From Posidonia oceanica (taxonomy: Eukaryota; Streptophyta; Magnoliopsida; Alismatales; Posidoniaceae), in the NCBI GenBank assembly GCA_037176725.1, contig JAZBRS010000050.1, forward strand, positions 12,914,001-12,978,000: a stretch of DNA of 64,000 nucleotides, written 5' to 3'. Shown piece by piece: positions 3-33,186 of the stretch (its first letter is position 1; each line of letters begins with the position of its first letter). A program made the position numbers and the translations under genes. The notes below the pieces were generated by a model, which saw nothing but the letters and a program-made list of their open reading frames with translations, was not told the origin of the DNA and did no database searches.

Positions 3-3000
3 GCCCTAGGATTTCAGTCTCCCGGACAGTCCGGATCTCTTGGTTCTGGTTCCTCGCCGGCACTACAATTCAGTGTTCCCACTGACGGGACACCTGAAGA
101 GCAGTACCAGCAACTGATGGACACTATCCAGCGGCTGCAGGGTATAGCTCTATCAGTCCGCCCTCCTTCCCCTCCTGTTGTTCCTGAGGTTCCTGTGCGG
201 CCTACTCTCGCACATCTTGCACTGCACACTGCACTTCCGCCTAGACCATCGTCCCAACTGCTCACGGTTCCGACGATGGGGGCACGTATTCCGCCTCTTG
301 CATCAGCACCACACCTCACACAGCATGCACCTCCGCCACCTGGTGGCCAGTCGTTCGGACTAGTGGGAGCACAGTATCTCGCAGGCCCGTCCCCCGGCAC
401 CGCCCCGGTACGGCCGCTGATGCTCCATCATCCTGCACCCACCACACAGCATACCATCTATCCTCCCCCTTTGCATCAGGCTCAGACTTCCACATGCATC
501 CCTCCTTGCACTCCACCACAGCACGGGTATGCCGGCCATCACCTTGCGTCACCAGGCGACGTGATGGTGGATCCGGAGGAGCACCTCAGTGCGACCCAAT
601 CGGCATACGTGGTCCCTGCCCCCGCTGCCCCATCACCTGTAGCAGCTATCCCAGACCCCATCAACAACAGGATGGACGTTCTGGAGAAAGCACTGCGTCT
701 AGTGCAGGGCACGGACCACCAGACCTACCAGTTCCGAGACCTCTGCTGTTTCCCAGAGGCGGTACTCCCCCCGAAGTTCAAAATACCGGACTTCGAGAAG
801 TATGATGGTAGGGGCTGCCCCATAGCCCATCTGAAGGCGTACTGCGGTGATCTCGCCCAACTCCAGGCGGACGAGAGGTTGCTGATCTGCCTGTTCCAAA
901 AGAGTTTGTCTGGTCCGGCCCTCAAGTGGTTTACCTCGCTTGACATGGCTACGATCAAGACTTGGAACGACCTAAGCCAGGCGTTCTTGGAACAGTACTT
1001 TTTCAACCTCGATCTGGTCCCAAAGCGCGCGGACTTGATCGCAACCAAGCAGAATCCGGGCGAGCCGTTCGGGGAGTACGTCGGCCACTGGTGTGCCCTT
1101 GCCTTGCAAGTTCGAGATAAGCCCTCCGACGAGGAGTCTATCGAGATCATCATAAAAGGGGCACAGTCGTCCACCGGAGCTTTGCTTAGCATCCAACCCG
1201 TCACAACCTTCACTGCTTTGATCCGAGCTGGCACTCGCGTAGAGAGTTCGTTGCGGAGTGGCAACTTTCCCGCACTCTTTGTGCTTGCCAAGCAGGCCCC
1301 CGCCAGCAACGACGGTAGTAGCAGCAGCGCCATCAACAACAACAGCAGTCTCAACAACAATCGTCCCAAGAGGAAGGATCCGCCGAAGCCCGTTGTCGCA
1401 TACGTCGACTCCCCTGCTGCGCCCGTCCGTCTAGCATCCCGGCCTGCCCCTCCTCAGATCTATTACGCACCTGCACCTAGGGCACACCCTACACCACAAA
1501 TCACTACCACCGCTCAACCGGTCTATCCTGCCGCACCGGTTCAGCAAGGACAATTCCAGAGGCCGAGACGGCCACCCATGGAGAAGCGGAAGTTCGCCCC
1601 ACTAGTGGAACCGCTCACTGCCGTCCTCCCGAAGGTTGCGTCGCTCCTGAGATTTCCGGAGGTTCGCCCGCCACCGAGCCCACTACCGCATTGGTTTAAG
1701 GCGAACCTTTTCTGCGACTTTCATCGAAGCGTCGGGCATTCGACTAATAGTTGTTTCACTCTCCGGAATGCTATCCAGGACTTGATCGAATCGGGAACGA
1801 TTGTGATCGACACGCACGAGGCATCCACTTCTGCACCATCTCATGCACCTGCATCAGCATCTACCCCAGCTAATGTTGTCCGCCGACCCCTGCCGGAGCA
1901 CTCCTATTCAGGAGGCGCAGGGACCTCAGGAATTCACTCCTTGTTTCCTTCTGGGTCTCTTACATCCATGGTAGATCCTTCCGAGCTCATCCATGATGTT
2001 TCCACTCCCTTCCCAGTCTCTCTCTATCTTGCAGCTATCGCCGGTTCCGAGTCGGGCGTCCATATGATCCGACCGCGCCCCAGGCCGGAGCGTTCTCCCG
2101 CATCAGCCGCCATGCTTTCCCGGGCCCAAGCCCCAGTACCTCTCCTAGTTAGACCTCAGCCAGAGCTTCCCGTCCACCTACTAGCAAGACCTCAGTCCCC
2201 ACCTAGCTTGCCTTCCCAACTACCCTCCTACCCATGCCCTCCTCAGCCTGTAGCCCCTCTCGTGCTCGCCGCACGCGCTCCCGTGGTTATTAACCTAACC
2301 CGGGATACCCATCGCGTACCCTACAGCTACGCCACAGAAATGTGTGCGGAAGTGATGCGATCGGGGAGGGTCTACAGACCTCCGGCTCCAGTAGCCAGAC
2401 CTAGCCACCCACAACCTGCAATACCTTTGCCTTCAGTCCAGCCTACAGTCCCACTACCTTCGGGCCAGCCTCTTGAATCCACCACAGCTGAACCTGTCCC
2501 TACAACCGCACCGCCTGCTACCAAGAAATGCCAGCCTAAAGCCGATATCACTTCCCAGCTCAAAAAGGTTAAGGCCGACATATCCATCTGGGACCTGATA
2601 CACACTTCGGTCGAGCACCGCGAGACTTTCCTTCGCGTGTTCCAAGCCGCCCGTGTGTCCCAAGCCATAGAACCTGCTGCCTTGGAAAGCATGGTTGGAA
2701 TGATCACGGAGCCCCAGGTCATCACTTTCACGAGTGATGAGCTGCCTCCGGCGGGGATTAATCACAACCAACCCTTGTTCGTCACGGTACAATTCAAGAA
2801 CTTTCGCATTCCCCTTGCACTGGTCGATAATGGGTCAGGCCTTAACGTCTGTCCCTTGCGAACAGCAATCAAGCTCGGATTCAAGGCCGAGGACATTACT
2901 CCAGCTGTAAAGGTAATGTCGGCTTTTGATAACACTCACCATGACGCTCTAGGGATTCTGATTATTCCTCTTACCATTGGCCCGGTCACATTCGATGTGG

Positions 3001-4922
3001 AATTCTACGTCGTCGACTTGGAACCTAATTTCAACTTTCCGCTTGGGCGCCCTTGGCTCCACAAGCATCAGGTTATCCCCTCGACCCTCCATCGCATGAT
3101 CAAGTTCCGCCGAGGCGACGATGTTATCGTTGTCATGGCGGAGAATTTTGAGAAGGAGCGAATCGAGGCGATTTCCTCTATCTCTTCGCGGACTGTCCCC
3201 TTTGACCCTGAACTTTCGAACGCTTTGTATCGCGTTAATCGGTGCGAGCCGGTTAACTTTTTGCCAGATCTTGAACGTGTCAACTCCTTGGCCGTTCACA
3301 ACAACCCCTTTCGGATGGTCGAGAACGTTTGTCACAGATGGGGCTACGTCAAAGGGACACCGCTCGGGCGACATGGCCAAGGAATCGCTGAACCAATCAT
3401 GGCGGAAGAACGAAGAGACAACGAGGGTCTAGGTTACGACCCTCACACCGATAAAGGCAAGCGCCCGCAAGCAAAGAATCAGAGAATGGTCATACCTCGG
3501 AGCTTGGCTAACTTTACAAGCACAGGTATCCTGGACTCAAGCGCAGTTCAAGCCATAGTGCCGTCAGAGCCGTGTCAAAGTCCTCCGCCACCGGAGGAGG
3601 ACTGGGTCTGCGTTGAGGACTACTACTCGGACGAGGAACAGTCGGGCACGACGGGGGCAGTTCAGACTTGCAGCGAAAGCCAGCCCAATGCAACAACACA
3701 TCAGTCGGTTTATCTGGCCACTCCTTCCACAGATCATGAAGCAGCAGTCTTGACAGAACACTCGGCAGATTTGGCAGTCTTTGATTCTCCTGCAGCCATG
3801 TCAGCAATACCAGCACCAATTCAAGCACAGTCAGTCAGTTCGCAGGCAACCGTTGTCGCATCAATGCAACTACCACCTTCGCAGAAAGGTCAATCGCTGA
3901 GTTCAGTCAACAGCGCAGCTCAGCCCTTTTCAGAGGCCATACCACAGGCAATACAGCCAGTTCAGTCAGTCACACTTCCCCTTGCCGCAGACCGGCAACT
4001 TTCATGGCCAGATCCTATGGTATCGGAGGCCGAGCTCTCGTCGTCATCACCAGTCACGGAGAACCAGCTGAGCATCGCGGTCTCCCGGCCCTCGGGCCTT
4101 CAAGAGAGCACCTCCGCCCATCCTCTGACTGCAGCAGTCACTCTGGCAGCATATCCATCTGCAATCCCTCTGACTAGACCATCTGGGTCTCCCTTGCCGA
4201 GACAGTCGCAATCAGGCGCGCCCGTGAGTCAGAAGATACAAGTACCAGAGACAGTAATCCATCTCGCAGCCGAGCCCGTGCCTCAGGCCCTCGGCGCCTA
4301 CTATGTCGATTCACCTCCAGATGAGGAAGAAGAAGGGGCGGTAGAAGCCCAGGTCGACTCGTGGATGTCTGATTTGGAGCTACTTTACCAGGAACAGCTC
4401 GAATCCATAGTAGAAGACCTGGCACGACACCAAGCCGCAGAAAGGAAAGGAAAAGCCGTGATTACGGATCCTCCTCTGCGAGAGGACTCCACCTCCATCA
4501 TGGTCCTAGGAGAAAGCTCAATGGTGTCGGATTCTCTCAGACCCGACGAGCTCATTACCCTTCAAACCGAGGGTGGGTCCAGATGGCTTGTACAGCATAT
4601 GCCTTCCACTAGTACATTGGCAGATTCAGAAGAAGAGACACCAGCGGGTTGCACAGCAGCAGTAACAGAGCAAAGAGCAGAGTCAGTGACAGAGTTGTCA
4701 GAAGTTTCAGTGGCAAAGTCATCAGCAGTATCAGTCCCAGGGTCAGCAGGGCCTCCAGTAGTGTCAGCAGAACATACAGCAATGTCATCAGCAGCAGAGC
4801 AGACGGGAGAAGTTATCAGAACAGAGACCGCGCACCGCGGTGCAGTAACTCTTGAGGACATGGACCAGGTCGAGCAGTCTGAGCCGGTCAACATGTGCTA
4901 CCTCAAGAAGTACTATCAGTAG
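3..4922 (+). CDS. gag-pro: Gag-protease polyprotein of element C (5'-partial)
   Basis: The frame is open from base 3 to the TAG at 4922, about 1639 residues. The ATG at 117 is internal and has no claim to be the start. In order one sees a Pro-rich N-terminal region, a retrotransposon Gag core (about nt 770-1180), a zinc-knuckle-like C-x2-H-x4-H-x4-C (nt 1713-1754) followed by the IQDLIE stretch usual in this lineage, and an aspartic protease with DNGSG at nt 2826-2840 ending near GRPWLH. Next come a degenerate G-patch-like stretch (nt 3325-3390), then a long Ser/Gln/Pro-rich tail with acidic blocks. Gag would form the particle and the protease would process it. The last residues (CYLKKYYQ) match the end of pol in element A, so this ORF is gag-pro fused to the pol terminus with RT to integrase deleted. 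The lack of stops suggests a young copy or selection. Confidence 0.93.
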   Translation, partial: ALGFQSPGQSGSLGSGSSPALQFSVPTDGTPEEQYQQLMDTIQRLQGIALSVRPPSPPVVPEVPVRPTLAHLALHTALPPRPSSQLLTVPTMGARIPPLASAPHLTQHAPPPPGGQSFGLVGAQYLAGPSPGTAPVRPLMLHHPAPTTQHTIYPPPLHQAQTSTCIPPCTPPQHGYAGHHLASPGDVMVDPEEHLSATQSAYVVPAPAAPSPVAAIPDPINNRMDVLEKALRLVQGTDHQTYQFRDLCCFPEAVLPPKFKIPDFEKYDGRGCPIAHLKAYCGDLAQLQADERLLICLFQKSLSGPALKWFTSLDMATIKTWNDLSQAFLEQYFFNLDLVPKRADLIATKQNPGEPFGEYVGHWCALALQVRDKPSDEESIEIIIKGAQSSTGALLSIQPVTTFTALIRAGTRVESSLRSGNFPALFVLAKQAPASNDGSSSSAINNNSSLNNNRPKRKDPPKPVVAYVDSPAAPVRLASRPAPPQIYYAPAPRAHPTPQITTTAQPVYPAAPVQQGQFQRPRRPPMEKRKFAPLVEPLTAVLPKVASLLRFPEVRPPPSPLPHWFKANLFCDFHRSVGHSTNSCFTLRNAIQDLIESGTIVIDTHEASTSAPSHAPASASTPANVVRRPLPEHSYSGGAGTSGIHSLFPSGSLTSMVDPSELIHDVSTPFPVSLYLAAIAGSESGVHMIRPRPRPERSPASAAMLSRAQAPVPLLVRPQPELPVHLLARPQSPPSLPSQLPSYPCPPQPVAPLVLAARAPVVINLTRDTHRVPYSYATEMCAEVMRSGRVYRPPAPVARPSHPQPAIPLPSVQPTVPLPSGQPLESTTAEPVPTTAPPATKKCQPKADITSQLKKVKADISIWDLIHTSVEHRETFLRVFQAARVSQAIEPAALESMVGMITEPQVITFTSDELPPAGINHNQPLFVTVQFKNFRIPLALVDNGSGLNVCPLRTAIKLGFKAEDITPAVKVMSAFDNTHHDALGILIIPLTIGPVTFDVEFYVVDLEPNFNFPLGRPWLHKHQVIPSTLHRMIKFRRGDDVIVVMAENFEKERIEAISSISSRTVPFDPELSNALYRVNRCEPVNFLPDLERVNSLAVHNNPFRMVENVCHRWGYVKGTPLGRHGQGIAEPIMAEERRDNEGLGYDPHTDKGKRPQAKNQRMVIPRSLANFTSTGILDSSAVQAIVPSEPCQSPPPPEEDWVCVEDYYSDEEQSGTTGAVQTCSESQPNATTHQSVYLATPSTDHEAAVLTEHSADLAVFDSPAAMSAIPAPIQAQSVSSQATVVASMQLPPSQKGQSLSSVNSAAQPFSEAIPQAIQPVQSVTLPLAADRQLSWPDPMVSEAELSSSSPVTENQLSIAVSRPSGLQESTSAHPLTAAVTLAAYPSAIPLTRPSGSPLPRQSQSGAPVSQKIQVPETVIHLAAEPVPQALGAYYVDSPPDEEEEGAVEAQVDSWMSDLELLYQEQLESIVEDLARHQAAERKGKAVITDPPLREDSTSIMVLGESSMVSDSLRPDELITLQTEGGSRWLVQHMPSTSTLADSEEETPAGCTAAVTEQRAESVTELSEVSVAKSSAVSVPGSAGPPVVSAEHTAMSSAAEQTGEVIRTETAHRGAVTLEDMDQVEQSEPVNMCYLKKYYQ

Positions 4923-6199: not shown

Positions 6200-6231
6200 A
6201 GTTCTGATAATTCACAGTCTTGGCAACAGGT
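6200..6231 (+). promoter_or_regulatory. Candidate 3' splice site before the DUF7745-like ORF
   Basis: An ACAG followed by GTATCTGAAG ends at 6229, about 50 bases before the conserved ATG. Equivalent sites end at 18565 in B and 35984 in A. The A copy is preceded by TGCTAAC-like branch-site sequence near 35880. A spliced subgenomic mRNA would explain how an ORF downstream of pol is translated. I cannot identify a matching donor with confidence. Confidence 0.3.
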
Positions 6232-6281
6232 ATCTGAAGACTCTTGTGACAGCCGTCTGCCCACACCCTGCAATCTGTGCA

Positions 6282-7484
6282 ATGGGTTTCCCCACCTTGG
6301 TAACCCCCACACACTGCTCCGAGATCCTGCGAGAATGGATCGACAAGCTTACCAAAGATGACTGTGAGAAGCTGCGCCTGTGGGGCATTCCGACCAAGTT
6401 GCTAAAGGCTGCTGATGTAGAAGTAAGCCGCCATCTTCTGTGTGCTGCTGCACGATTCTGGAAACCAGCACACCATGTCTTCCGTTTCGGCAGAACTGAA
6501 CTGACACCCACATTGGAAGAAGTGCGCCGGATCTGCGGCTTTTCCAAAATCTTGGGGCCGCCCATCTTCATGAGGCGTGACGGATACATGGCAGTCCTGA
6601 AACAGCTGACCGGCCTCTCTACTCAAAGTTGCCAGCAGAAGCTGATTTGTACTAGCGGGCCTACGCCTCTGCTTCGCCTAGCGTACTTTGATGATATTGT
6701 GGAAAAGCGCACTGAACTCGGAGACGAGCTGTGGCTCCGAGGGTTTGTCACCCGTTTCCTAGGCGAGCTGGTCTTTACTCATGGCAAGGTAACAGTGGCC
6801 GTCGAGATCGCTGAAATAGCGCTCGCCGTGGTGACTAGCCAGATAGACCTAGCACCGGTTGTCTTGGCAGAAACCTACCGCGGTCTGGACCGCATCTCTC
6901 ATCGCTGCCGCCACTTTCATGGTTGCGGATCATTCATTCAGGTCTGGCTAGCGGCGCACACTGAGATAGACCTTCTGCGCCCCCAAGTGCACGCTTTCGA
7001 GGCCTACTGCAGCAGCGGCCATGCCAAGACAGTCAAGAGCGTCAAGGAAGAATACGAAAGGCTATCGGGACTGACAGACGACACAGTCACATGGCGCATC
7101 ATTCCTTCTCCAGCCGAAGCATTCACTGTCTTCTTCAATACACGCGACATGCGCTTGGTTGTGCTACCAGGATTTACTGCGGGTGTAGAATATCACCCTA
7201 TCAGGGTCATGCGCCAGTTCGGCTTCCAGTAGGGTGCCTTTGTCGACAGCACAGCGCCTAAGCTCCTTCAAGAATATCCCCTCAGTACAATTGCCCCCAC
7301 GAAGGAGCTGGCCAACCTGATGCAGCATGGGGTGCGATCAACAGACATCGCTGCAATAAGAGGTGTAGGGTGTACCCCTGAGTACATCACTGAGGTGCAG
7401 GACCTCTGGCCCATTGACGAAGTCCCGCCGAGCGGTCCCTTGTTCCCTGACTCTGGAAGATCAAAGAAGGCCCGAATCAGCTAG
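6282..7484 (+). pseudogene. DUF7745 / plant-mobile-domain-like extra ORF of element C, one nonsense codon
   Basis: About 400 codons from the ATG at 6282 to the TAG at 7482. This ATG begins MG(F/Y)PTLVTP and is the start shared by all three copies; an ATG 36 bases upstream is also in frame. The motifs FWKPAHHVFRFG, ELTPTLEEV and CRHFHGCG followed by a QVW stretch resemble the DUF7745 and plant-mobile-domain families. These families occur in plant nuclear proteins and inside transposons; their biochemical role is unknown to me. A TAG at 7230-7232 replaces CAG, which is kept in B and A, and the frame continues unchanged to the natural end. The ORF lies downstream of the pol position, whereas the classical Ogre ORF1 lies upstream of gag. 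DUF7745 and PMD are hard to separate by eye. Confidence 0.8.
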
Positions 7485-7865
7485 AGCCATCATGCAGCTG
7501 TCATTCTGTCTTCCTTTCAAGTTGTGCTGTGCTTTTTGGCCTGACACAGGCATGTAACCAACAATTCTATCAATGCAAAGCTGTTTTGCGCTGGCTGTTC
7601 ACATTTCAAGGCTGATCATGCATTCCATGCTCCTCGTCGCTCACGTCCGAAGGCCCCTTGGCCCAACTGATTGCTCGCATGACGCAGGAAAATCCTCAGC
7701 AAACGACCCAGGCTCCAGGACCTCTGCGAACCCGCGCCGTCCGACCTGCCACCGGACATCCCCAGCTGAGTCTCCCTTGGGCTGTTACCCCAAACTACTC
7801 GTCTGACAAACACGTCAGTTTTGCCCACCCTTCGCTTTTCTCGATACCAGGGACGTTCCGACCAA
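7485..7865 (+). other. Start of 3' UTR of element C
   Basis: I see no coding region. A small hairpin CTGAC/GTCAG lies at 7803-7818 and is kept in B (20137-20152) but decayed in A. The segment leads into the 12-bp hairpin at 7866. Confidence 0.55.
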
Positions 7866-7892
7866 CCCCTGGTATCATCCTGATACCAGGGG
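7866..7892 (+). other. Perfect 12-bp hairpin conserved in three elements
   Basis: The arm CCCCTGGTATCA (7866-7877) pairs perfectly with TGATACCAGGGG (7881-7892) across a 3-base loop. The identical hairpin is at 20201-20227 in B, and an 11-bp version with a 4-base loop is at 43698-43723 in A. The flanks contain further ATACCAGGG and CGGTATC pieces that could pair in alternative ways. Its function is unknown. Confidence 0.85.
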
Positions 7893-7945
7893 CATCTTTT
7901 CAGACGCCCCGCGGTATCTCACCCTTGTTCTCATCCCCTCTTTGC

Positions 7946-8525
7946 CGGCCGATAAGTCCGATATCTTATCACCTTTCCCAATCAATCAATCTCATCATTA
8001 TCTCACCTCCTCTTTGCCGGCCGATAAGTCCGATATCTTATCACCTTTTCCAATCAAGCTCTCATCATTATCTCGCCCCCTTCTTTAGCATTAGCTCTCA
8101 TCATTACCTCACCCCCCTTCTTTAGCAATAGTTCTCATCATTATCTCACCCCCCTTCTTTAGCAATAACTCTCATCATTACCTCATCCCCCTTCTTTAGC
8201 AATAACTCTCATCATTACCTCATCCCCCTTCTTTAGCATTAGCTCTCATCATTACCTCACCCCCCTTCTTTAGCATTAGTCCTCATCATTACCTCGTCCC
8301 CCTTCTTTAGCATTAGTTCTCATCATCACCTCATCCCCCTTCTTTAGCATTAGCTCTCATCATTACCTCACCCCCCTTCTTTAGCAATAACTCTCATCAT
8401 TACCTCACCCCCCTTCTTTAGCAATAACTCTCATCATTACCTCACCCCCTTCTTTAGCAATAACTCTCATCATTACCTCATCTCCCTCTTTAGAAGTAGC
8501 TTCTCATCATGATCTCATCCCCTCT
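7946..8525 (+). repeat. Minisatellite, about 35-bp unit
   Basis: About a dozen units of roughly 35 bp share CTCATCATTACCTC, a C-run and CTTCTTTAGCAATAA. They are framed at the left by two copies of a GATAAG...CTTATC unit (about 7946-7972 and 8017-8043) of the kind found in the next array. Element B lacks this block and passes directly into the next array, so the expansion is private to C or was lost in B. Confidence 0.85.
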
Positions 8526-8621
8526 TATCAAGCAATCAAGCACTCATCAATCAATCATTCGGCATTCAATCACTCATCAACCAATCACTCATCACTCGAT
8601 CATTCATCAATCAAGCACCCT

Positions 8622-9721
8622 TAGGCTGATATCCTAAACTATCAACAATCAAGCACTCCTAGGCTGATATCCTAAACTATCAACAATCAAGCACTCTCAG
8701 GCTGATATTCCTAAACTATCTATTCCCAGGCTGATATTCCTAAACTATCTATTCCCAGGCTGATATTCCTAAACTATCTATTCTCAGGCTGATATCCTAA
8801 ACTATCTATTCTCAGGCTGATATTCCTAAACTATCTATCTTCTGGCCGATCCATGGTTGGCCCGCAGTTGTGTTATACGGCTGACATCCAGTAACTGTCC
8901 CTCGCAATGCCGCCAGGCTGATAACCTAAACTATCGATCTAGGCTGATAACCTAAACTATCGCTAGGCTGATATCCTAAACTATCTATCTAGGCTGATAT
9001 CCTAAACTATCCGGCATCTGCGTTATACGGCTGACATCCAGTAACTATCCCTCGTAATTGCCCTTTCCAGTTGATAGGACTGTAAACTATCTATCTAGGC
9101 TGATAACCTAAACTATCGATCTAGGCTGATATCCTAAACTATCGATCTAGGCTGATAACCTAAACTATCGATCTAGGCTGATATCCTAAACTATCTATGG
9201 CAATTACGTTATACGGCTGATATCCAGTAACTATCCCTTGCAATTGCTCTTTCCAGTTGATAGGACTGTAAACTATCGCTAGGCTGATAACCTAAACTAT
9301 CGATCTAGGCTGATAACCTAAACTATCGATCTAGGCTGATAACCTAAACTATCTAGGCTGATATCCTAAACTATCTATCTAGGCTGATATCCTAAACTAT
9401 CCGGCACTTGCGTTATACGGCTGATATCCAGTAACTATCACTCATGGTTTGCCCTTTCCAGTTGATAGGACTGTAAACTATCTATCTAGGCTGATATCCT
9501 AAACTATCGCTAGGCTGATATCCTAAACTATCTATCTAGGCTGATATCCTAAACTATCTATGGCAACCATGTTATACGGCTGATATCCAGTAACTATCAC
9601 TCACAACTGCGCCTTCCGGTTGATAGGACCGTAAACTATCGCTCCGGTTGATAGGACCGTAAACTATCGCCCTCGGCTGATGATCCGAAACTCATCCGGT
9701 CGATAAGTCCGACAACTTATC
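8622..9721 (+). repeat. Tandem array of interleaved inverted-repeat (pseudoknot-like) units, element C
   Basis: About forty units of 22-25 nt fill the 3' UTR. Each has two inverted repeats in the order X-Y-X'-Y', the topology of an H-type pseudoknot. Examples: TAGG/CCTA with GATA/TATC (8622-8643); CAGT/ACTG with GATAG/CTATC (9068-9091); CGGT/ACCG with GATAG/CTATC (9617-9640); CGG/CCG with GATGA/TCATC (9674-9696); CGG/CCG with GATAAGT/ACTTATC (9697-9721). A GATA/TATC pair also appears as GACA/TGTC (8883-8899). Both arms change together between unit types. Tandem repeats in the 3' UTR of Ogre-type elements are a known phenomenon; the interleaved pairing is my observation. Confidence 0.85.
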
Positions 9722-10106
9722 ACCCCTCCCGCGCGACTTCGTCCCAAAAGACGGAGCCCCGCATCCTTCTGCGTCCGGGAAAAGGTCCACCTCTCCCGTC
9801 ACGCCTTTGTGGCTTTGGCTATCCTTCTTTTCGTGGCAGGTCTGGACCTCCCGTCAAGCTCCGCGGTGCACCGCAACGTCCCTCTTCAGCGTCGTCAGCA
9901 TCGCCAGCGTCACCCGCGTCGCTTCGGTCCCCCCATCGGTACTAACTCTAGCACTAACTTTTGCATTGCATCCGCATTAGCATACATCGCATACACTGCA
10001 TCTCATCCATTTGCACCTGCACATTGCGCTGCAGCAACGATCCACGATCTTCGGCGCATCCGCCGAATAAGTGGCTCACGCCGATAGCAACCCTCTGCTC
10101 TCGCCG
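9722..10106 (+). other. Distal 3' UTR of element C with a 7-bp hairpin
   Basis: No gene is supported. A perfect TTCGGCG/CGCCGAA hairpin with loop CATC lies at 10050-10067 and can be extended by CCAC/GTGG. B has the same hairpin with one G-T wobble (21893-21910). A has a different outer stem, GAGTCAT/ATGACTC (45930-45968), around a related core. Confidence 0.6.
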
Positions 10107-10197
10107 GTCAAATGGGGTGTCCCGTCAACCCAGAGCAGCGGCCTCGCTTCGCTCGGCCTCGCTCAGGGAGGGGCATCTGTTGACACCCCATTTTGAC
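10107..10197 (+). promoter_or_regulatory. Structured region around the polypurine tract and LTR start, element C
   Basis: Two nested pairings are possible. The inner arm CCCAGAGC (10129-10136) faces GCTCAGGG (10161-10168), whose AGGG is the start of the polypurine tract. The outer arm GTCAAATGGGGTGTC (10107-10121) faces GACACCCCATTTTGAC (10182-10197), which is the LTR start. B has CCCTGAGT/ACTCAGGG for the inner stem, so the end base pair changed from C-G to T-A on both arms. A keeps CCCTGAGC/GCTTAGGG and a shorter outer stem. Confidence 0.7.
10165..10173 (+). promoter_or_regulatory. Polypurine tract of element C
   Basis: AGGGAGGGG followed by CATC lies directly before the TG of the 3' LTR. 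This is the expected plus-strand primer position. The same purine run occurs at 22008-22016 (B) and 46057-46065 (A). Confidence 0.85.
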
Positions 10198-13100
10198 AGG
10201 CCGGATCGTTTGGAGCCTTCCGGTGGCTGCTGGACCCGAATCTAGACCCAAATCCACACCTTCCTCTCCTTCTTTCCCTTCAAAGCAAGCCCAAACTCAA
10301 CCTAGGATTACCCCCTTTCCCGAACCTGAAAACCCACCAAAATCCATAGGAAAACTCACCCCTGATGACTTAGCAAACCCACCAAAAAGCCTGCAAAATC
10401 TCAAACCAGACCCCTCCCAAAAACCCTAGGAAACTTAGGCAAAAATACTCTTTTTCTACACCTCAAAACCCCTGCAAAACTTCCTCAAAACCAAACCAAA
10501 ACTCTGGGACCAAAACTAGAAACCCTAGACCCCGCACCCGCCAAGTTTCACCCCCTTCCGAGACTCCTAAGACCCCCTTTTGGCCAAATTATCGTTTTCT
10601 CTCTTCGGGATTATCGTTTTCTCTCTCCTCTCTCTCTCCTGATTATTGTCTCTCTTTTCATCCTCTTCTTGCCCTTTTTCCGGCTTGGCTGTGGGCCCCC
10701 TTTGTACTCCTATCCCTTCTCTATCTTATTCCTATTTTTATTTTATTTTTAACATTTTCCCTGAATTTTAAAAATCTTTTCCCTCAAACCTATCTCTTTC
10801 CCCCTTTATTCTCCTTTTTCCCATTTTCTTCTTCTTTTCCTTTTCCTTCTTCTCTCTTTTGCAAAAAACCATAAAAATCCTTAAAAACCTGTAAAACCCC
10901 AAAACATAAAATAAACAAATCAGAATTCCAAGAAAAGCAACTAAAAAACATTAAATAAATGATTAAAAACTCAAACTTAACTAAATCAAGCTAAAAAGAA
11001 AATCAAGCATGCAAACTAAAAAATGCAAAACAAACTAAAAGAAAATACTGTAAAATCAAGTAAAAAACTGAAATAAAGTCAGAACCTACCCAAGATAAAA
11101 ACCCCACTAAAAGAATTAAAAAACAAACCCTAAAAAGAAGAATTAAAAACCAAACACCAAAACAAGTAATTAAAGGAGACAAAAGACTTAACCTAATAAA
11201 CACAAGAAAAAACAACATAAAACTTAATTAAAAAAGAAAAAGAAAATACAGTTGAAAGACTTAAGAACACTTAATCAAACCAGGAAAAAACCAACTAAAA
11301 AACATCAAGAAGAATTAACAAATAAAAATCAAAAAACATAGTTCAAAAGACTTAAGGAAGAAAAACATAAAAGACTAGAACTAAAAAGCCCAAAACCTTT
11401 TCTAATTAATATGAAAATAAATCCTAAAAATCCTAATTAACATCCTAAAATACTTAACAAGAAAACACAATTTTAAAAACAATTTAAAAAGACTTAACCA
11501 ACACTTAATCAAGTGGGAAATGAATTAAAAACAAAAGAAAGTCCTAAAACCCTAATCAAGCCTAAAACACACTAATTAACCTAAAAACAGTCATTAAAAA
11601 ATCCAATTAAACACCTAACCTACAACCCAATTCATCTAAGATTTTTGTTTATTTTTATCTTATTTTTTCTTATTTTATTTCCCTCCCTCTTTCCATCTTT
11701 CTTTCTTTCTTCCTTTTATCCTTTCTTTTCTTCCTTACTGGGCTCACCAGCCCGTTACCCTATTTTTTCTTTTTTTAAAACCGCAGCCCACAGCTACAGT
11801 CGACCTCCGTCTTCCTTCCTTCCTCTCCCGCATTGTAGAGCTACAGTGTCTCGCCGCCTGCAACTCTGCCCCGACCTGTCACCTCCTGCTCGAGCCGGAC
11901 TGGCGTGCGCCGGAGCGTCGTCCTTGCTCCTGCCATCGCCTCTCCGCAGCATTCATTGGTCGCAGACCTGCAAAGCTAAGTGAGGAGTGGTCAGGATTCA
12001 GAGGGCAGAAAGAGGAGAAATCAGAGTGCATTTCAGGAGAGGAAAGGAGAGGAGAAGAAGAGAGAATTCATCCCGAGGGAGGGAGGAGCATTCCGAAGCA
12101 ATCCCCAGCGAGAGAGAGAACCCTTCTTCCCCAGAAATCCACCAAAAAACACCCGAACTCCGCCTCTTGCTTCCGCACCGAACCAGAAGCTGAAACACCC
12201 CGAGAACCATTCAGAATTCGCCCCCCAATCTCGCTGAAGCCTCCTGCAACTCTTCCCCTCCTTTCTACATCGAAAACAGCCCACATTTCGCCGGAGTCCA
12301 CCTGAAATCCAACCGGAACCCAACTCCCTTCCCTTCTGAAATTCCCTCTGCCACAGTCCACCACATCCTCCCAAACTCCGCCCCAACATTCACCTGAACT
12401 CCACCTTCCTGAAACACCTAACCTCCAGCTCAGTAACCCACCACAGACCGAAAGCTTCACCACAAACACCTATCCTCCCCACTGACCCGAAATCCGACCA
12501 ACTGCCAAACTCTTCCCACAGCCTCCAGAAAATCAATTTGACCATCCAGAATCATCCACCGAACCTCCAGGAATCCTCCGGAAGGCCCCATCCAATCCAA
12601 AGAGCGACAGACGGCCCTCCCCACCTCAGGCGACGCCATCTGCACCCATTTCAGCCGCTTGCTCTTCCGATCGCCAAACCTCCGCTCCAGGCACTCAGAA
12701 AGCTCCGGAGGATCACGTGGAGCCGATCCCAACCCTCGCGAGCAGCCAGCGACGTCCGCAGCAACCGGACGACCACCTCCGGCAACTGCAGAATCCTCCT
12801 AGGTCGGGAGGACACCTCAGCCGCCCAAACAGGTAACCGCTAACCTCCTTGGCTCCCTCTCCCTCCTCTGATGCTTCTCCGCCGATCAGAGCCAGCTCTC
12901 CGGCCCTCCTGCTCCAACTGCGTCTCGCCGGTCCGATCTTCGTCTCCGGTGCCGGTCACCTGTCTCCCGGGCGCTCCAGCCACTGGAACGCTGCTCCGAC
13001 ACCCTCCAGGGCTCCGCACGGTCGCCGACAGTCCCCTCCGCCCTCCTGCGCGCCTGCGAGCGCCCTGGGCCGGCGGTGTTGAGCTCCGGCGGTCTCTGCT

Positions 13101-14188
13101 ACAGTACCCCCCCACCGTCGGCAAAGCACTGTTCATTTATTTCTCTGTTAATATAGTTTTAGGTGTGAATATTGCAGATCTGGTTTAAGTTATTTCATTT
13201 TTACGTTTTAGTCCTCTGTTCATTTAATGTGTTTAGTTTTTAATTAAAAACCATGCTAAATTGCAGCTGTTATTCATGCTTTTCTGTATTTGCAATCTAG
13301 TCCATTTACTGTGCTGCTTAGTTATAAAATTTTATGCTTTAGTCCCTCTGCTTTCCACTATTGCACTTAGGTCCTGTTTTAAATCAATCTATTTAATTGC
13401 ATGTATTTTACCATATCAAATTGCATTCTGGCCCCCTGCATGTTTCTGATTTTGCATGTAGGTCCATGCACTGTAGGAACTTAGCTTTTATTTTCTTATT
13501 CTGCATACTGCATTGCATTTTTTACCTTCTGCCTTTGCATATTTGCATTTAGGTCCATTTTAAATGGACAGTAACTCTTGCATGCATTTTTAGCTTATTG
13601 CATTGCATTTTTTGACCCTGTTCTTTTTAAAAATTGCACTGTAGTCCTGTCCCTTATTTTTCAGAGCATGTTTTCCATATAAAATTGCATTTTTGACCCT
13701 TGCATGATTTAAAAATCACACATAGAGCCTTGCATCTTTCAAAAACCATGTGAAAAGACTGTTTTGCCCCCAAGTTGCATTTTAACTCCTATGCTTGCAA
13801 AAATTGCATGTAGGCCCTCCACTTGCATTCCCAGACTCCCCAGAACCCCTGTTTTCTGGAAAATTTGCATTTTAGCCCCTTTCTTTCTTCAAAAATGCTT
13901 TTGAATCCCTGTTCTTTCCAAATTGTTTTTCTTTGTCTTTTCTTGCTTTGCATGCATTCTGCATCCATTTAATCTTGCATTTTAGCTCCCCTTTGCACAC
14001 ACTAAGCACTTTTAACTCCCCTTCACTTGGGAGGACCTTCAGCACACCCTTAGGACCTCCTGAACACTTAGATCTGTTCTTCTCTCCCGTTCTGGCCCTT
14101 CTGCTCCGAAGCTGCGATATCTTTCAATCCGACCGTTGGATCTCCTCAAGTAAGCTGCCCAGGCGACCGCAGCGAAGCGCTCTTCAGC

Positions 14189-14231
14189 ATGGACCAAGCA
14201 GATCTCCGATCAGACTCCCGGATTTCCAGGT
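14189..14231 (+). promoter_or_regulatory. Short ATG frame running into a donor-like site in the LTR
   Basis: An ATG at 14189 opens a 13-codon stretch that runs into CCAG followed by GTATGT at 14229/14230, a good plant 5' splice-site match. B (26234-26274) keeps the arrangement. D (40684-40724) keeps the donor but has a stop after two codons. It could be a leader exon end or chance. Confidence 0.25.
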
Positions 14232-14277
14232 ATGTCCTCCTGAACCCCTGCACTGCATTCATTTGCATACCATTTGC

Positions 14278-14880
14278 ATCGTTTTGCGTGCTTTCAAGTT
14301 TTCTTGCTCCGTTTTGCGTGCCGCTTCTTTGTCTTGCACCGTTTTGCGTGCAGTCTTGTTTTCTCGCACCGTTTTGCATGCCTTTTAGTTTTCTCGCCTC
14401 GTTTTGCGTGTAGTCTTGTTTTCTTGCTCCGTTTTGCGCGCCGCTTCTTTGTCTCGCACCGTTTTTGCGTGCCCTTTAGTTTTTTCACTCCGTTTTGCGT
14501 GCTTTCAAGTTTTCTCGCTCCGTTTTGCGTGCTGCTTCTTTGTCTTGCACCGTTTTGCATGTCCTTTAGTTTTCTCGCCTCGTTTTGCGTGTAGTCTTGT
14601 TTTCTTGCACCGTTTTGCGTGCCGCTTCTTTGTCTTGCACCGTTTTGCATGCCTTTTAGTTTTCTCGCCTCGTTTTGCGTGTAGTCTTGTTTTCTTGCAC
14701 CGTTTTGCGTGCTGCTTCTTTGTCTTGCACCGCTTTGTGTGCCCTTGAGTTTTCTCGCCTCGTTTTGCGCGCAGTCTTGTTTTCTTGCACCGTTTTGTGT
14801 GCCCTTTCGTTTTCTCGCCTCGTCTTGCATGCCCTTGGTTTTCTTGCCCGGTTTTGCGTCCTTCTTTCGTTTTCCTGCAC
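14278..14880 (+). repeat. 30-bp minisatellite in LTR C
   Basis: About twenty units of exactly 30 bp begin GTTTTGCGTGC and alternate between three spacer types, for example CGCTTCTTTGTC and AGTCTTGTTTTC. Because 30 is a multiple of three, all frames on both strands stay open, which creates long spurious reading frames. Related arrays lie in LTRs B, D and A. Confidence 0.9.
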
Positions 14881-15285
14881 CGCCTTGCGTTCTTGTTCCG
14901 TTCCTTGCATCATTTGCATGTCAACCTTGTTTTCGCATCTTTTTGCATCCTTGTTTCGTTCCTCGCACTGTTTTACGCTGTTTCCTCTTGCATGTCGATT
15001 GCATTGCATGGTTTTCTCGCCGTTTCGCTCTTTCGCCTGCATTTGCATATAGGGTGGTGATGCTTACTGTCCGGAGTTCTCACGAGCCAGGTTTCACCCG
15101 GTTCGGAACACAGACAGCGTTGCTGAGCGCTTAGATTGCACGTTTACTTCCTTGCATCGTCCTCCATCACTTCGAGCACACCTTTGAGCATTTAGATAGG
15201 CATTCATTGGCACTTAGGCATTCAAAGTCTGCATTTCCCTGCATATGCGAGCGTAAGCCTAGAAAGACCGATTCTCGGGCGTGTC

Positions 15286-15307
15286 GGGGGTGCCTAACAC
15301 CTTCCCC
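15286..15307 (+). other. Tat-type U5/R hairpin
   Basis: A G-run and GTG pair with CAC and a C-run around CCTAA. Sequence of this kind before the primer-binding site is familiar from Ogre/Tat LTRs. Copies lie at 27760-27781 (B), 41912-41932 (D) and 49270-49290 (A). It may mark the RNA 3' end or another R-region structure. Confidence 0.6.
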
Positions 15308-15503
15308 GCGCGTAACAGAAGTCCTTACCCTCTCTTGGCCCGTAATGACCATATTGCCCTTGTCCTAGGTACGAGTCACATCATTTGCATTCATTTGCAT
15401 CTCATTTCTTTTGCATTGCCTTGCATTGCGTCTTTTGCTTGGTTTTGCGTGATTATTCACGCATCTCCCCGGTTTTCCTCGTCTTCCGATTTAATAGACT
15501 TGG

Positions 15504-15516
15504 TGGCGACTCCGAT
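15504..15516 (+). other. Primer-binding-site-like motif inside the LTR
   Basis: TGGCGACTCCGAT matches the start of the tRNA-Arg type primer site of Tat/Ogre elements. It lies 174 bases before the LTR end, where a primer site should not be. The same holds in B (27980), D (42129) and A (49479). Confidence 0.55.
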
Positions 15517-15618
15517 TTTGTCTTATCTTCTTCTTTTCTTTCCCTTTTTCCCTCTCTTAAATGTTTTCGAGTTAGGTCTTCCTTCTCGGACATAGCCGCT
15601 AATAGTGAGCCTGATTCC

Positions 15619-15658
15619 GATCGGTGCACGCAAGCTTTAGCATCGTGCATGGACGATC
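15619..15658 (+). other. Nested hairpin 20 bases before the LTR end
   Basis: The outer arms GATCG/CGATC and inner arms TGCACG/CGTGCA enclose a 13-base loop. It is conserved in LTR B, and in LTR A with one wobble pair. LTR D lost most of it by a deletion of about 50 bases. Confidence 0.55.
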
Positions 15659-15678
15659 CGAACACTGGGATCACAACA

Positions 15679-15683
15679 CCAGG
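15679..15683 (+). repeat. Probable right target duplication of element C (CCAGG)
   Basis: These are the five bases directly after the LTR end. They are part of the gag-pro frame of B, where C has CCAAG. The left copy lies outside the window. Confidence 0.5.
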
Positions 15684-17285
15684 GAATCGCTGAACCCATC
15701 ACGGCGGAAGAACGAAGAGACAACGAGGGTCTAGGGTACGACCCTCACACCGATAAAGGCAAGCGCCCGCAAGCGAAGAATCAGAGAATGATCATACCTC
15801 GGAGTTTGGCTAACTTCATGAGTGTAGGTATCCTGGGTTCAAGCGCCGTTCAAGCCATAGTGCCGTCGGAGCCATGCCGAACCTCTCCATCCCCGGAGGA
15901 GGACTGGGTCTGCGTTGAGGACTACTACTCCGATGAGGAACAGTTTAGCACAGTAGGGGCAGTTCAGACTTGCAGCGAAAGCCAGCCCAATTCAACAGCA
16001 CATCAGTCGATTTATCTGGCCTTTCCTTCCACAGATCATGAAGCAGCAGATTTGGCAGAACACTTGGCAGATTTGACAGTCATTGATTCTCCTGCAGTCA
16101 TGTCAGCACCATCAGCACCAACTCAAGCACAGTCAGTCAGTCCGCATGCAACCGTTGTCACATCAGTGCAACTACCACCCTCTCAGGAGGGTCAATCGCT
16201 GAGTCCAGTCAGCAGCATAGCCCAGCCCTTTTCAGAAGCCGCATCTCAAGCAACGCAGCCAGCCCAATCAGTCACGCTTTCTCTTGCCGTAGACTGGCAA
16301 CTTTCATGGCAAGATCCTATGACATCAGAGGCCGCGCTCTTATCATCATCACCAGTCACGGAGAACCAACTGAGCATCACGGTCTCCCGGCCCTCGGACC
16401 TTCAAGAAAGCACCTCTGCCCATCCTCTGACAGCAGCAGTCACTCTGGCAGCGTATCCATCGGCACTTCCACTGACTAGACCATCTGGGTCCCCCTTGCC
16501 GAGGCTATCGCAATCGGGCGCGCCCGTGAGTCAGGCCATACAAGTACTAGGAACATCAATCCATCTTGCAGCCGAGCCAGCGCCATAGGCCCTCGGTGCC
16601 TACTATGTCGACTCACCCTCAGATGAGGAAGAAGGAAGCGCGATAGAAGCCCAGGTCGATTCATGGATGTCTGATCTGGAGCTGCTTTACCAGGAACAGC
16701 TCGAATCCATAGCAGAAGACTTGGCACAGCACCAAGCCGCAGAAAGGAAAGGAAAAGCCGTGGTTACGAATCATCCTCTGCGAGAGGGCTCCACCTCCAT
16801 CATGGCCCTGGAAGAAAACTCAAGAATGCCGGACTCCTCTAGACCCGATGAGCTCATCACCATTCAACCCGAAGGTGGGTCTAGTTGGCTCGTGCAGCAC
16901 ATGCCTCACTCGGGCAGGATAGTAAGGGGCGGCAGTATCCAGGTCAGCCGCCAGTCCGATACGCCCTCCACAAGCATGTTAGCAGATTCAGAAGAAGAGA
17001 CACCAGTAGATCACACAACAACGGCAACAGAACAGAAAGCAGAATCGATGACAGAGTTGTCGGAAGTTTCAGTGGCAAAGTCATCAGCAGTATCAGTTGC
17101 AGAGTCAGTAAGGCCTTCAGTAGTGTCGACAGAACATGCAGAAGTGTCATCAGCAGCAGAGCAGACGGGAGAAGTTATCAGAACAGAGGCCGTGCGCCGA
17201 GGATACAGAAACTCTTGAGGACATGGACCAGGTCGAGCAGTCCGAGCCGGTCAACATGTGCTACCTCAAGAAGTACTATCAGTAG
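15679..17285 (+). pseudogene. gag-pro: C-terminal part of gag-protease of element B
   Basis: The frame resumes at CAG-GGA-ATC (15680), equal to C at about 3376 in the G-patch-like stretch. The capsid and protease parts are beyond the C insertion. It keeps the conserved tail blocks: an acidic WVCVEDYYSDEE block near 15905, AYYVDSP near 16598 and LELLYQEQLESI near 16680. A TAG at 16586 replaces CAG. Close to the end the frame runs into a TGA at 17216, while the terminal CYLKKYYQ codons ending at 17285 are in another frame. The point where gag-pro meets the pol terminus differs from that in C: here GATACAGAAAC is retained before CTCTTGAGGAC. Confidence 0.88.
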
Positions 17286-18616
17286 CTGGGAGTAGCCCTT
17301 GCGGATCCTTCCTCCCACTTCTCATATTTTCACCACTCGCATGTCTTTGCATCTCTATTCGCTCTATCTCCTCCATACTTTACTTCATCCCATTTCCTAC
17401 ATTCCCTGACATTGCAGCACTCCTGTGCATCCCTGCTCATCCCGTTCACATTCCTCATCAAATCATGCATTGCATAGTTGCCTGGTGATGAAAACCGGAG
17501 GTGCTTGCCTGCTGCAAAAGGAGTCTCCCGACTTCACCTGATACTACTTAGACGTCTTGACTAGTAAGGGAGCCACCACTCAATGAGAGCGGGCGAAGTG
17601 TCCAAACTCCTAAAGACTTACACTCCTAGAAGAGTGCTAGGCATTAGCTAGAAGGCAATACATATCTCAGCCTAGATGCGCAAGAAAAGAGAGAAAGAGA
17701 GAGCCAAAAGTCGGTACCTAAAGGACCCTAACACCCATTTCCCCTAGGGAAGGGACAGCGGAGACCTGCAAGCCAAAAAGAAAGAAAAATGAAAAAAGAA
17801 TGAAAAAAAAAAAGAAAAAAAAAGAAAAAAAAAACCGAAGGAAAAGGAGAATGATGGAAAAGGAAAGGGAGGGGGACAAAGGCCCTATTCCCGCAAAAAA
17901 AAAAAGAAGAAAAAAAGAAGAAGAGAATAAAGGCAGGCAGGGTAACCCCGCACCTCTCACCTACCCTAGAAAAGAGTCAAAGCCCGGATCAGGTCCTCCT
18001 CGCTTCCAAAATGGGAATGAGGAGAGCCCTGCACACCGACATAAAAAGAGAAGGAAGAGGTAGGAGCGAGTGTAAGTCCTTGAGAGTTTGGCATGGAGCC
18101 CGTCCACTCTACACCACCACCAAACATCACCAACACCCTTTCCTAGAGTGCCACCAACAAATCAGGAGTCCGAGTAGAGTCCGGTGAGTTAGGGACCGCT
18201 CATTTCTTATGCAGCAGACACCAAAGCACCCTGATACTGAGGGCAAACTACACCAATCACGCATGCATCCGCATTTTCCAGTCATCTCCACTCCTTCTGA
18301 TCATTCTACTCCGCAAAAGCTTACTCCAGCGCTGAGACAGTACTTCTACTCAGCACACGTTGGCACCGTCAGGCTGCGACAACCCAGGACTCCCGCCAAT
18401 CCCCGCTGCATCAACAGAATCTCTTTGCTTACGTATGTTCAATTGCCATAGTCTGAATTTTTACTGTTTAAATGTGTTGGACTGTCTCTACCAGTTTCAG
18501 AATCTGCTTTCCGATAATAGTCTTGTGCCTACATGAGATCCGATAATCCACAGTCTTGGCGACAGGTATCTGAAGATTTTGTGACAGCCGTCCGCCTACA
18601 TTCTGCAATCTGCGCA
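17286..18616 (+). other. Non-coding spacer of element B, with purine tract 17682-17935
   Basis: It is homologous to 4923-6281. It contains the shared GAGGGAGCCACC block (about 17568), the A/G tract and, at 18565, the candidate splice acceptor. No gene is supported. Confidence 0.7.
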
Positions 18617-19818: not shown

Positions 19819-20280
19819 AGCCGTCATGCAACTGTCACTCTGTTTTCCTTTCAAGTTGTGTTGTATTTTCTGGCCTGCTACAGGCATGTAACCGACAGTT
19901 CTATCAATACAAAAGGGTTTTGTGCTGGCTGCTCGCATTTCAAAGCTGCTTAATGCATCCCATGCTCCTTACCACCCATATCCGGAGGCCCCTGGCCAGA
20001 CTTGTTGCCCACATGACGCAGGAAAGTCCTCGGCAAACGACCCAGACTCCAGGATCTCTGCGGACCCGCGCCGTCCGACCTGCTACCGGACATCCCCAAC
20101 TAAGTCTCCTTCGGGCTGGTATCCCAAACTACTCGTCTGACAAACACGTCAGTTCTTTTGTCCATCCTTCGCCTTTCGATGCCAGGGACGTTTCGACCAA
20201 CCCCTGGTATCATCCTGATACCAGGGGCATCTTTTCAGATGCCCCGCGGTATCTCATCCATGTCACCACCTTCCTCTTTG
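19819..20280 (+). other. Proximal 3' UTR of element B with the conserved hairpin
   Basis: It holds the CTGAC/GTCAG hairpin (20137-20152) and the perfect 12-bp hairpin at 20201-20227, identical to that of C. No gene is supported. The 35-bp minisatellite found in C is absent. Confidence 0.65.
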
Positions 20281-21565
20281 CCGACCGATAAGTCCGATAT
20301 CTTATCAATCAACCAATCAATCAACAATCAAGCACTCTTAGGCTGAAATCCTAAACTATCAACAATCAAGCACTCTCAGGCTGATATCCTAAACTATCAA
20401 CAATCAAGCACTCTCAGGCTGATATCCTAAACTATCAGCAATCAAGCACTCTCAGGCTGATATCCTAAACTATCAACAATCAAGCACTCTCAGGCTGATA
20501 TCCTAAACTATCAGCAATCAAGCACTCTCAGGCTGATATCCTAAACTATCAAACAATCAAGCACTCTTAGGCTGATAACCTAAACTATCACGCAGTTGTG
20601 TTATACGGCTGACACCCAGTAACTGTCACTCGTAATTGCCCTTTCCAGTTGATAGGACTGTAAACTATCGCTCCAGTTGATAGGACTGTAAACTATCGTT
20701 CCAGTTGATAGGACTGTAAACTATCATTCTCTGGCTGATGATCCAAAACTCATCCTAGGCTGATAACCTAAACTATCACTGGCAATTACGTTATACGGCT
20801 GATATCCAGTAACTATCCCTTGCAATTGCTCTTTCCGGTTGATAGGACCGTAAACTATCATTCTCTGGTTGATGATCCAAAACTCATCCTAGGCTGATAA
20901 CCTAAACTATCACTCGCAATTGCATTATACGGCTGATATCCAGTAACTATCACTCGCAAACACCCTTTTCCAGTTGATAGGACTGTAAACTATTGTTCCA
21001 GTTGATAGGACTGTAAACTATCATTCTCTGGCTGATGATCCAAAACTCATCCTGGGCTGATATCCAAAACTATCACGGGTTTGCGTTATACGGCTGATAT
21101 CCAGTAACTATCCCTCATAATTGCTCTTTCCGGTTGATAGGACCGTAAACTATCATTCTCTGGCTGATGATCCAAAACTCATCCTAGGCTGATAACCTAA
21201 ACTATCACTCGCAATTATGTTATACGGCTGATATCCAGTAACTATCACTCATGGTTTGCCCTTTCCAGTTGATAAGACTGTAAACTATCGTTCCAGTTGA
21301 TAGGACTGTAAACTATCATTCTCTGGCTGATGATCCAAAACTCATCCTAGGCTGATAACCTAAACTATCACTTGCAACCATGTTATACGGCTGATATCCA
21401 GTAACTATCACTCACAACTGCACCTTCCGTTTGATAGGACCGTAAACTATAGCTCCAGTTGATAGGACTGTAAACTATCGCTCCGGTTGATAGGACCGTA
21501 AACTATCGCCCTCGGCTGATGATCCGAAACTCATACCCCTGGCCGATAAGTCCGATAACTTATCA
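20281..21565 (+). repeat. Tandem array of interleaved inverted-repeat (pseudoknot-like) units, element B
   Basis: The unit types match those of C but their order and number differ. Examples: CAGT/ACTG with GATAG/CTATC (20646-20669); CGGT/ACCG with GATAG/CTATC (20836-20859); TGG/CCA with GATGA/TCATC (20732-20754); a GACA/TGTC pair at 20611-20627. The first third is a regular 36-bp repeat of TAGG/CCTA or CAGG/CCTA units joined by CAATCAAGCACTC. Later, a longer higher-order block recurs: CAGT or CGGT units, a GATGA unit, a TAGG unit, then a GTTATACGGC unit. Confidence 0.85.
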
Positions 21566-26593: not shown

Positions 26594-26747
26594 TTTGTAG
26601 GTCTTCACGCCTACTCTATGTGGTCCTAAACAGCGTCTGCTCCCACACACGCGCTGTTTTGCTTCTCTTTGGTTTCTTCCGATCTCTTCCTTGCATTTAG
26701 CATCCGCATAGCTTTCCCGGGGTTTTGCTTCGTTGTTTTTGGCACCG

Positions 26748-31019: not shown

Positions 31020-31021
31020 GC

Positions 31022-33176: not shown

Positions 33177-33186
33177 AGACCGAGCA

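Follow-up and report, generated by a model that had tools for sequence, protein, structure and literature searches.

The 3' untranslated regions (3' UTRs) of Ogre-like retrotransposons nested in a stretch of Posidonia oceanica DNA probably carry a selected RNA structure, composed of units with interleaved helices and of a closed ring, which may act as a platform in the sense RNA. The stretch analysed (the window) comprises 64,000 nt of contig JAZBRS010000050.1 (positions 12,914,001 to 12,978,000, assembly GCA_037176725.1). Selection on RNA structure is the best reading of the sequence patterns described here, and selection for pairing is well supported. The interleaved helices are predicted to fold as H-type pseudoknots, while ring units would link several arms into a closed multibranch ring. 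We infer that it is the sense genomic RNA that adopts this structure.

Nested retroelements in the window

Plant LTR retroelements lie nested within one another in the window. The coordinates of the main features are listed in Table 1. Element 1 has a 3' UTR at about 7500-10177. Element 2 comprises 15679-22020 plus an LTR. Element 3 covers about 28264-36262 and 42260-49641 and is split by a solo LTR (36263-42254, ~6.0 kb, with the target duplication CCAGG), which lies within the mobile-domain ORF of element 3. Element 1 appears to have inserted within the gag region of element 2, and element 2 within the gag region of element 3. Breaks between blocks of similarity, together with the CCAGG duplication that flanks the solo LTR, point to this order.

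The pol region of element 3 codes for a reverse transcriptase (RT, in 31545-32345), an RNase H (RT_RNaseH, in 32487-32861), an additional RNase H (RVT_3, PF13456, in 32865-33071) and an integrase (in 33154-34269). A tblastn search (E up to 0.01) with these four gave no relatives in either element 1 or element 2, so that both elements look non-autonomous; a portion of element 1 and the left side of element 2 fall outside the window. Passages of PMC6317226 name an additional RNase H between RT-RNase H and integrase, together with non-coding tandem repeats, as features of Tat/Ogre elements. For Ogre, they report an extra ORF with a plant mobile domain in 57% of the elements and LTRs of up to ~5 kb. 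The additional RNase H has this position in element 3, a relative of elements 1 and 2, and the plant mobile domain ORF (PF10536) is found in elements 1 and 2. Long LTRs and repeats are also present, with the solo LTR being somewhat above the reported length range.

The protein encoded by the mobile-domain ORF has 28 relatives, 26 of which come from short contigs (58-96% identity). The integrase has 1328 relatives. Among the 120 matches listed, those from flowering plants have ~46-56% identity, and those from short contigs reach up to 83% identity over part of the length.

Two long open frames run antisense inside an LTR. One (24308-25003, minus strand) has no Pfam match, and the other (26459-27553, minus strand) overlaps a tandem array. 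The nested elements are flanked by a further tandem array with a period of ~3.6 kb (49642-64000).

Table 1. Features of elements 1 and 2, with positions in the window
Feature	Element	Position	Strand	Remarks
Gag and G-patch open frame	1	3..4919	+	runs off the left end of the window
Plant mobile domain ORF (PF10536)	1	6201..7229	+	5' of the 3' UTR
Outlying unit CGG-cc-GATAAG-t-CCG-atat-CTTATC	1	7946..7970	+	second copy at 8018-8042
Array of 35 units	1	8621..9721	+	7 in the 5' tract, 24 in the ring domain, 4 in the 3' tract
P0, 5' strand, CGCAGTTGTG	1	8863..8872	+	9/10 pairs in the minimum-energy fold
Ring pseudoknot A, S2 = GACA/TGTC	1	8876..8899	+	S1 bulged; S2 covaries
Arm 1	1	8903..9022	+	8903-8911 with 9013-9022, 9 bp, one bulge; 4 pseudoknots
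Arm 2	1	9053..9208	+	9053-9062 with 9199-9208, 10 bp; 5 pseudoknots
Arm 3	1	9239..9412	+	9239-9247 with 9404-9412, 8/9 pairs, weakest; 6 pseudoknots
Arm 4	1	9443..9571	+	9443-9453 with 9562-9571, 10 bp, one bulge; 4 pseudoknots
Other ring pseudoknots	1	9026-9049, 9212-9235, 9416-9439, 9575-9598
P0, 3' strand, CACAACTGCG	1	9602..9611	+
3' tract, 4 pseudoknots	1	9617..9721	+	longest S2, up to 7 bp
3' LTR	1	10178..15678	+	right edge inferred from homology breaks
Homologue of the mobile domain ORF (PF10536)	2	18521-19405
Array of 38 units	2	20281..21564	+	3' UTR
Six-helix ring domain	2	20592..21421	+	P0 20592-20600/21413-21421
Arms, first three	2	20631-20640/20781-20790, 20821-20829/20916-20924, 20955-20965/21077-21085
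Arms, last two	2	21116-21124/21211-21219, 21250-21259/21374-21382

Units with interleaved helices

A preliminary description of the element 1 array had proposed that it is built from units with two short inverted repeats in the order X-Y-X'-Y'. With the layout parsed as S1-L1-S2-L2-S1'-L3-S2', 35 units of that order were obtained in the array and two more upstream (7946 and 8018). Together with 38 units from the 3' UTR of element 2, 75 units were parsed. The second array and the long-range helices (see next section) were absent from the preliminary description; the helices carry the stronger covariation.

The units are 21-26 nt long and nearly every one of them keeps the two interleaved helices. 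S1 occurs in the classes TAGG, AGG, CAGT, CGGT, TGG, TCGG and CGG and in a ring class, TACGG. S2 occurs as GATA, GACA, GATAG, GATGA, GATAAG and GATAAGT, with 3' strands that match as a rule. All five Y/Y' types proposed earlier were found in element 1, as were four of the five X/X' types, whereas TGG/CCA was parsed only in element 2 (5 units). Also, X/X' is imperfect in the ring units (five in element 1), where one base is bulged or mismatched. This imperfect S1 is invariant among the ring units. Outside the ring-class S1, a mismatch is present in 1 of the 37 units from element 1 and in 4 of the 38 from element 2. Element 2 would be expected to be the older of the two, provided that element 1 sits inside it, but the difference in mismatches is small.

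In 73 of the 75 units, L1 has 1-2 nt, L2 0-2 nt and L3 2-4 nt, ranges that are partly imposed by the search, as the parser permitted only 1-2, 0-2 and 1-5 nt, respectively. The loops are alike across units (L1 is mostly CU or U, and L3 is A-rich) while the helices vary. L1 lies beside an S2 of 4-7 bp, and L3 beside an S1 of 3-5 bp. Within the limits set by the parser, these lengths favour an H-type pseudoknot in the sense strand, as had been proposed. By sequence and loop lengths, the interleaved helices can be spanned in this way; the ring class fails a strict test of S1. In the antisense order, 2 nt would have to cross a stem that can reach 7 bp. Many S2 stems consist of four A-T-rich pairs, and so a lone pseudoknot is probably only marginally stable.

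Pairing is nearly complete. S1 cores have 188 Watson-Crick and 2 G-U pairs among 192 (the 11 ring units of the two elements excluded), and S2 has 329 and 1, respectively, among 334 (all 75 units). Parses maximise pairing, so that the fair control consists of shuffles that are given the same search freedom. Under this control, a perfect H-type pseudoknot of at least 7 bp was found in 14 of the 24 distinct unit cores (which fall into about eight classes), against 0.21 expected. Four of the ten cores that fail this strict test are of the ring class (bulged S1) and six contain a mismatched, wobble or shifted pair. At the level of the arrays, there are 30 such pseudoknots in 8604-9721 and 26 in 20320-21565, against a shuffle mean of 1.1 each and a maximum of 4 (40 shuffles each). 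Background tiles of 1.2 kb (49 tiles) have a mean of 1.3 and a maximum of 5.

When arms were shuffled among the 24 cores, using a hand-coded core layout that leans towards pairing, the 169 of 192 cells that are paired (mean 148.5) were reached by none of 2000 shuffles. Leaving out the ring class does not alter this (146 of 160 cells, mean 127.4, 0/2000). Five columns have two-sided changes, a number reached by 84 of 2000 shuffles (without the ring class: four columns, 472 shuffles). The number of pair types was reached by 1940 of 2000 shuffles (1956 without the ring class). As neither two-sided columns nor pair types are exceptional among shuffles, the evidence at the unit level is mainly that pairing is retained. 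Among the 40320 permutations of the eight distinct S1 core types, only 8 reach the pairing of the real match. Counts were not taken from a MAFFT alignment of the unit cores, in which the classes were misaligned.

Both arms had been reported to change together. Pairing is indeed kept with joint change at several positions, the two-sided variants being AGG/CCT, CAG/CTG, CGG/CCG and TGG/CCA for S1 and GATA/TATC, GACA/TGTC, GATGA/TCATC and GATAAGT/ACTTATC for S2, but the column count alone is not rare. The preliminary description had also named two outcomes that would speak against it: no excess over shuffled controls and variation confined to a few founder units. Unit pairing exceeds the shuffles in both the arm-shuffle and the array controls. 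The variation is not limited to a few broken founder units, and this objection fails because element 2 keeps the pattern with other mixtures of classes.

Single pseudoknot-like units were seen by eye in all three elements (~7777-7800, 20113-20134, 43608-43629, 45641-45664 and 45702-45726). They are of the type GGG-ct-GGTA-t-CCC-aaac-TACT and variants thereof; one pair of variants is GGTAG/CTACT versus AGCAG/CTGCT, and some units are mismatched. Perhaps such units are the ancestor of the arrays. Directly 5' of the arrays, each of the three elements has words of the type GATACCAG (7843 and 7882; 20217; 43714) within inverted repeats, the inverted repeat having been computed for element 3 only.

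Cyclic pairing of the ring-unit flanks

Eleven units (5 in element 1 and 6 in element 2) begin with the shared sequence TTATACGG. Their flanks differ, and the flank after each of these units complements the flank before the next one, while the last flank complements the first. Pairing of these flanks would close a multibranch ring, with five helices in element 1 (8863-9611) and six in element 2 (20592-21421), each of 8-10 bp. The junction of element 1 consists of P0 and four arms (Table 1), with five ring pseudoknots between the helices. That of element 2 consists of P0 and five arms, which contain 5, 3, 4, 3 and 4 pseudoknots, and has six ring pseudoknots. Outside the rings, there is a tract of 7 units before and of 4-5 units after.

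The cyclic pairing ranks first among all 120 permutations in element 1 (-68.5 versus a mean of -42.7, sd 8.2) and first among all 720 in element 2 (-74.3 versus a mean of -40.8, sd 8.0). In element 1, the runner-up has -68.0, so that swapping two partners costs only 0.5 kcal/mol. The two ranks are not independent because elements 1 and 2 share ancestry, being two related copies in one window. Hairpins formed by the 5' and 3' flanks of one and the same ring unit were considered and rejected, as they reach only -37.4 and -30.8 in the two elements. When each flank was compared to all windows of the 3' UTR (2267 or 1617 windows per flank), the cognate flank was unbeaten for 8 of the 11. For the other three, 7, 2 and 4 windows pair slightly better than the cognate.

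A gap-free alignment of the 11 arms has 89.9% of its 99 cells paired, against 76.5 +- 2.0 in shuffles (0/500), and this value falls to 28.6-39.4% once one strand is slid. Two-sided changes are found in 7 of the 9 helix columns, against 3.5 in shuffles (3/500). The covariation score is 0.554, against 0.279 in shuffles (0/500). Further pair types are below the shuffled level (488 of 500 shuffles reach the count). Columns 5/28 are G-C six times and A-U five times, and columns 6/27 are C-G six times and U-A five times.

Unconstrained minimum-energy folds of the sense strand, which cannot represent pseudoknots, hold 8 of the 11 ring helices; arm 3 of element 1 and arms 3 and 5 of element 2 are missing from them. 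Their energies are below those of all shuffles in both elements (z -3.2 in element 1 and -3.1 in element 2, 60 shuffles each). The first ring unit has GACA/TGTC as S2 in both elements, a pair that is absent from all other ring units (in the second ring unit of element 1, GACA faces TATC). This shared first unit indicates that the ring positions are partly orthologous.

Possible function and related structures

The arrays resemble the 3' UTR repeats of Tat/Ogre elements in having tandem short units between the last ORF and the 3' LTR, several interleaved unit families and variation in copy number. Hypervariable 3' UTRs are reportedly the subject of a paper by Macas et al. (2009). Soybean Gmr9/GmOgre has five interleaved minisatellites according to excerpts of PMC3305785, which describe no RNA structure. 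Tandem repeats in Tat-clade 3' UTRs are common and are given as a source of satellite DNA in passages of PMC7004042, while the origin and function of the tandem repeats in the Retand 3' UTR are stated as unknown in a part of PMC11963269. In contrast to the reading proposed here, these published accounts treat the repeats, in the portions cited, as DNA repeats. Neither "secondary structure" nor "pseudoknot" appears in the main text of PMC11963269 or PMC7004042.

We tentatively suggest that the array is a multivalent platform on which one RNA-binding protein, most plausibly Gag, might bind many near-identical pseudoknots. In an element that bears gag and has no detected pol, binding of Gag would render the RNA compact and label it, and the labelled RNA could then be packaged using the enzymes of a helper. 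With equal caution, we propose that the fold as a whole may be a domain that binds protein multivalently and compacts the genomic RNA, with packaging as the most likely purpose. The Rev response element is a retroviral multi-stem cis element, and it is similar in being a large multibranch retroelement RNA that could bind protein cooperatively. It is not known to have a pseudoknot array or repeated modules that vary in number. In yeast Ty3, RNA localisation and packaging require both UTRs and POL, as stated in passages of PMC11381356.

A translation or stability domain, formed by the same fold and binding host factors such as eEF1A, is nearly as likely as the packaging role and ranks close behind it, although it too is doubtful when taken by itself. 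It is suggested by analogy to the upstream pseudoknot domain (UPD) of tobamoviruses, where short H-type pseudoknots likewise follow one another in the 3' UTR of a plant RNA (in our case at the sequence level). In TMV, three consecutive pseudoknots that adjoin a terminal tRNA-like structure are reported to be important in replication and translation and to interact with eEF1A, and it is reportedly pseudoknot structure, rather than sequence, on which replication depends (passages of PMC4683447). Elements 1 and 2, however, have 37-38 units, which are mostly in or beside a closed ring and far from the RNA end: the array of element 1 ends 457 nt before the start of a long 3' LTR. A polyadenylated retrotransposon RNA would presumably also be less in need of a poly(A) substitute. 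Rfam includes UPD families, and neither these nor a tRNA-like family, as would be expected for a tRNA-like 3' end directly downstream, turned up in the Rfam scans. The whole window has no match at the gathering level. When matches of E up to 5 were admitted, 7 sub-threshold snoRNA-type matches appeared on the minus strand of the element 1 3' UTR (7906-8583), one of which overlies the outlying unit at 7946, and none appeared in that of element 2. Some units contain the words CTGATGA and CGAAAC, which we take to resemble a hammerhead core. A hammerhead ribozyme, as in plant retrozymes, was rejected: the words lie too close together to accommodate stem II, and Rfam gives no match in the two 3' UTRs with E up to 5.

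The remaining alternatives are less probable. The ring helices may be real while the interleaved helices of the units are mutually exclusive hairpins, acting as a switch or as alternative folds. Each helix alone would give a hairpin with a loop of ~7-9 nt, the stems are short, and identical units can pair across units, as they do in minimum-energy folds. We nevertheless consider this unlikely: hairpins tolerate any spacing, yet the connecting loops are short in all classes (parser limits contribute to this), and in element 2 neighbours of different class complement within the unit (by inspection). Still less likely is a compact RNA selected for escape from silencing. Helices of 3-10 bp would make a poor small-RNA target and Dicer substrate, and their sequence changes while the fold is kept, but this leaves the similar loops and the ring closure unexplained. 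It seems very unlikely that the structure functions in an antisense RNA, or in the single-stranded DNA of reverse transcription. Antisense folding of element 1 is even further from shuffles (z -4.6) than sense folding, but antisense folding of element 2 resembles shuffles (z -0.2 with 60 shuffles, z -0.6 with 20 shuffles). Also, the loop lengths are wrong for an antisense pseudoknot, and the arrays sit in the sense 3' UTR, 3' of the last ORF found. Folding energy was dropped as a means of choosing the strand: z with 20 shuffles had suggested sense for element 2, and the antisense z of element 1 did not fit. Counts of G-U versus A-C mismatches were too few for this purpose (2 and 0 in S1; 1 and 1 in S2). 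Least credible of all, to the point of being close to negligible, is ordinary satellite drift, with slippage or strand transfer in reverse transcription and complementarity by chance. Arrays in 3' UTRs are known from Tat, Ogre and Retand and are hypervariable or family-specific (passages of PMC7004042 and PMC11963269). The pairing is, however, far above shuffles at two levels, changes are two-sided and the cyclic matching is top-ranked. Drift after duplication would leave arms alike or broken, rather than each with its own complementary pair. As a full explanation, drift was rejected on the basis of the cyclic ranks, the arm covariation, the arm-shuffle and the array shuffles.

Returning to a selected fold that binds protein, we speculate that it might be a new RNA architecture, a rosette with a variable number of modules (each a ring pseudoknot plus an arm) that serves as a multivalent assembly scaffold for the retroelement particle, although we would not call this probable. 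The rosette would grow through module duplication, and compensatory drift would then give each arm a private helix code, which would keep the arms distinct and free of mispairing. If so, the hypervariable 3' UTRs of Tat elements would be folded RNA machines in which the fold is inherited, not the sequence, and the hairpin array of element 3 (see below) would realise this principle in a different form. With 37-38 pseudoknot units around a closed ring core, this would be an extreme case of a natural RNA. If the repeats encode a selected fold, the question of why these 3' UTRs are repetitive and hypervariable becomes directly testable. The ring architecture has a real chance of being new in its own right; searches of the open-licence literature in PubMed Central found no report of such a fold.

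Exact unit patterns gave 0 and 3 matches in viral contigs (two of them in one sequence) and 1 match in genome contigs. None of these four has a second family-like word within 1 kb, while unrelated pseudoknot-like matches lie near three of them. All four are taken as chance matches. Among 13 pattern matches in viral contigs (one scan), no relative of the mobile-domain ORF was confirmed.

The 3' UTR of element 3 (43838-45632) contains a nested-hairpin array with units of the types CTTG-ct-TCCTC-nnnn-GAGGA-CAAG and GACTTCG...CGAAGTC. The outer stem of the first type has 42 of 50 pairs (10 distinct of 20 units), which is mildly above shuffles (matched by 111 of 5000). The region 44718-45632 folds below shuffles (z -4.1, 20 shuffles). 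Arrays of the GCACCGTTTTGCGTGC type, with partly hairpin-like units of ~20-30 bp, are found at 14274-14894, 26735-27413, 41228-41598 and 48771-48969 and appear to lie near the 3' ends of LTRs.
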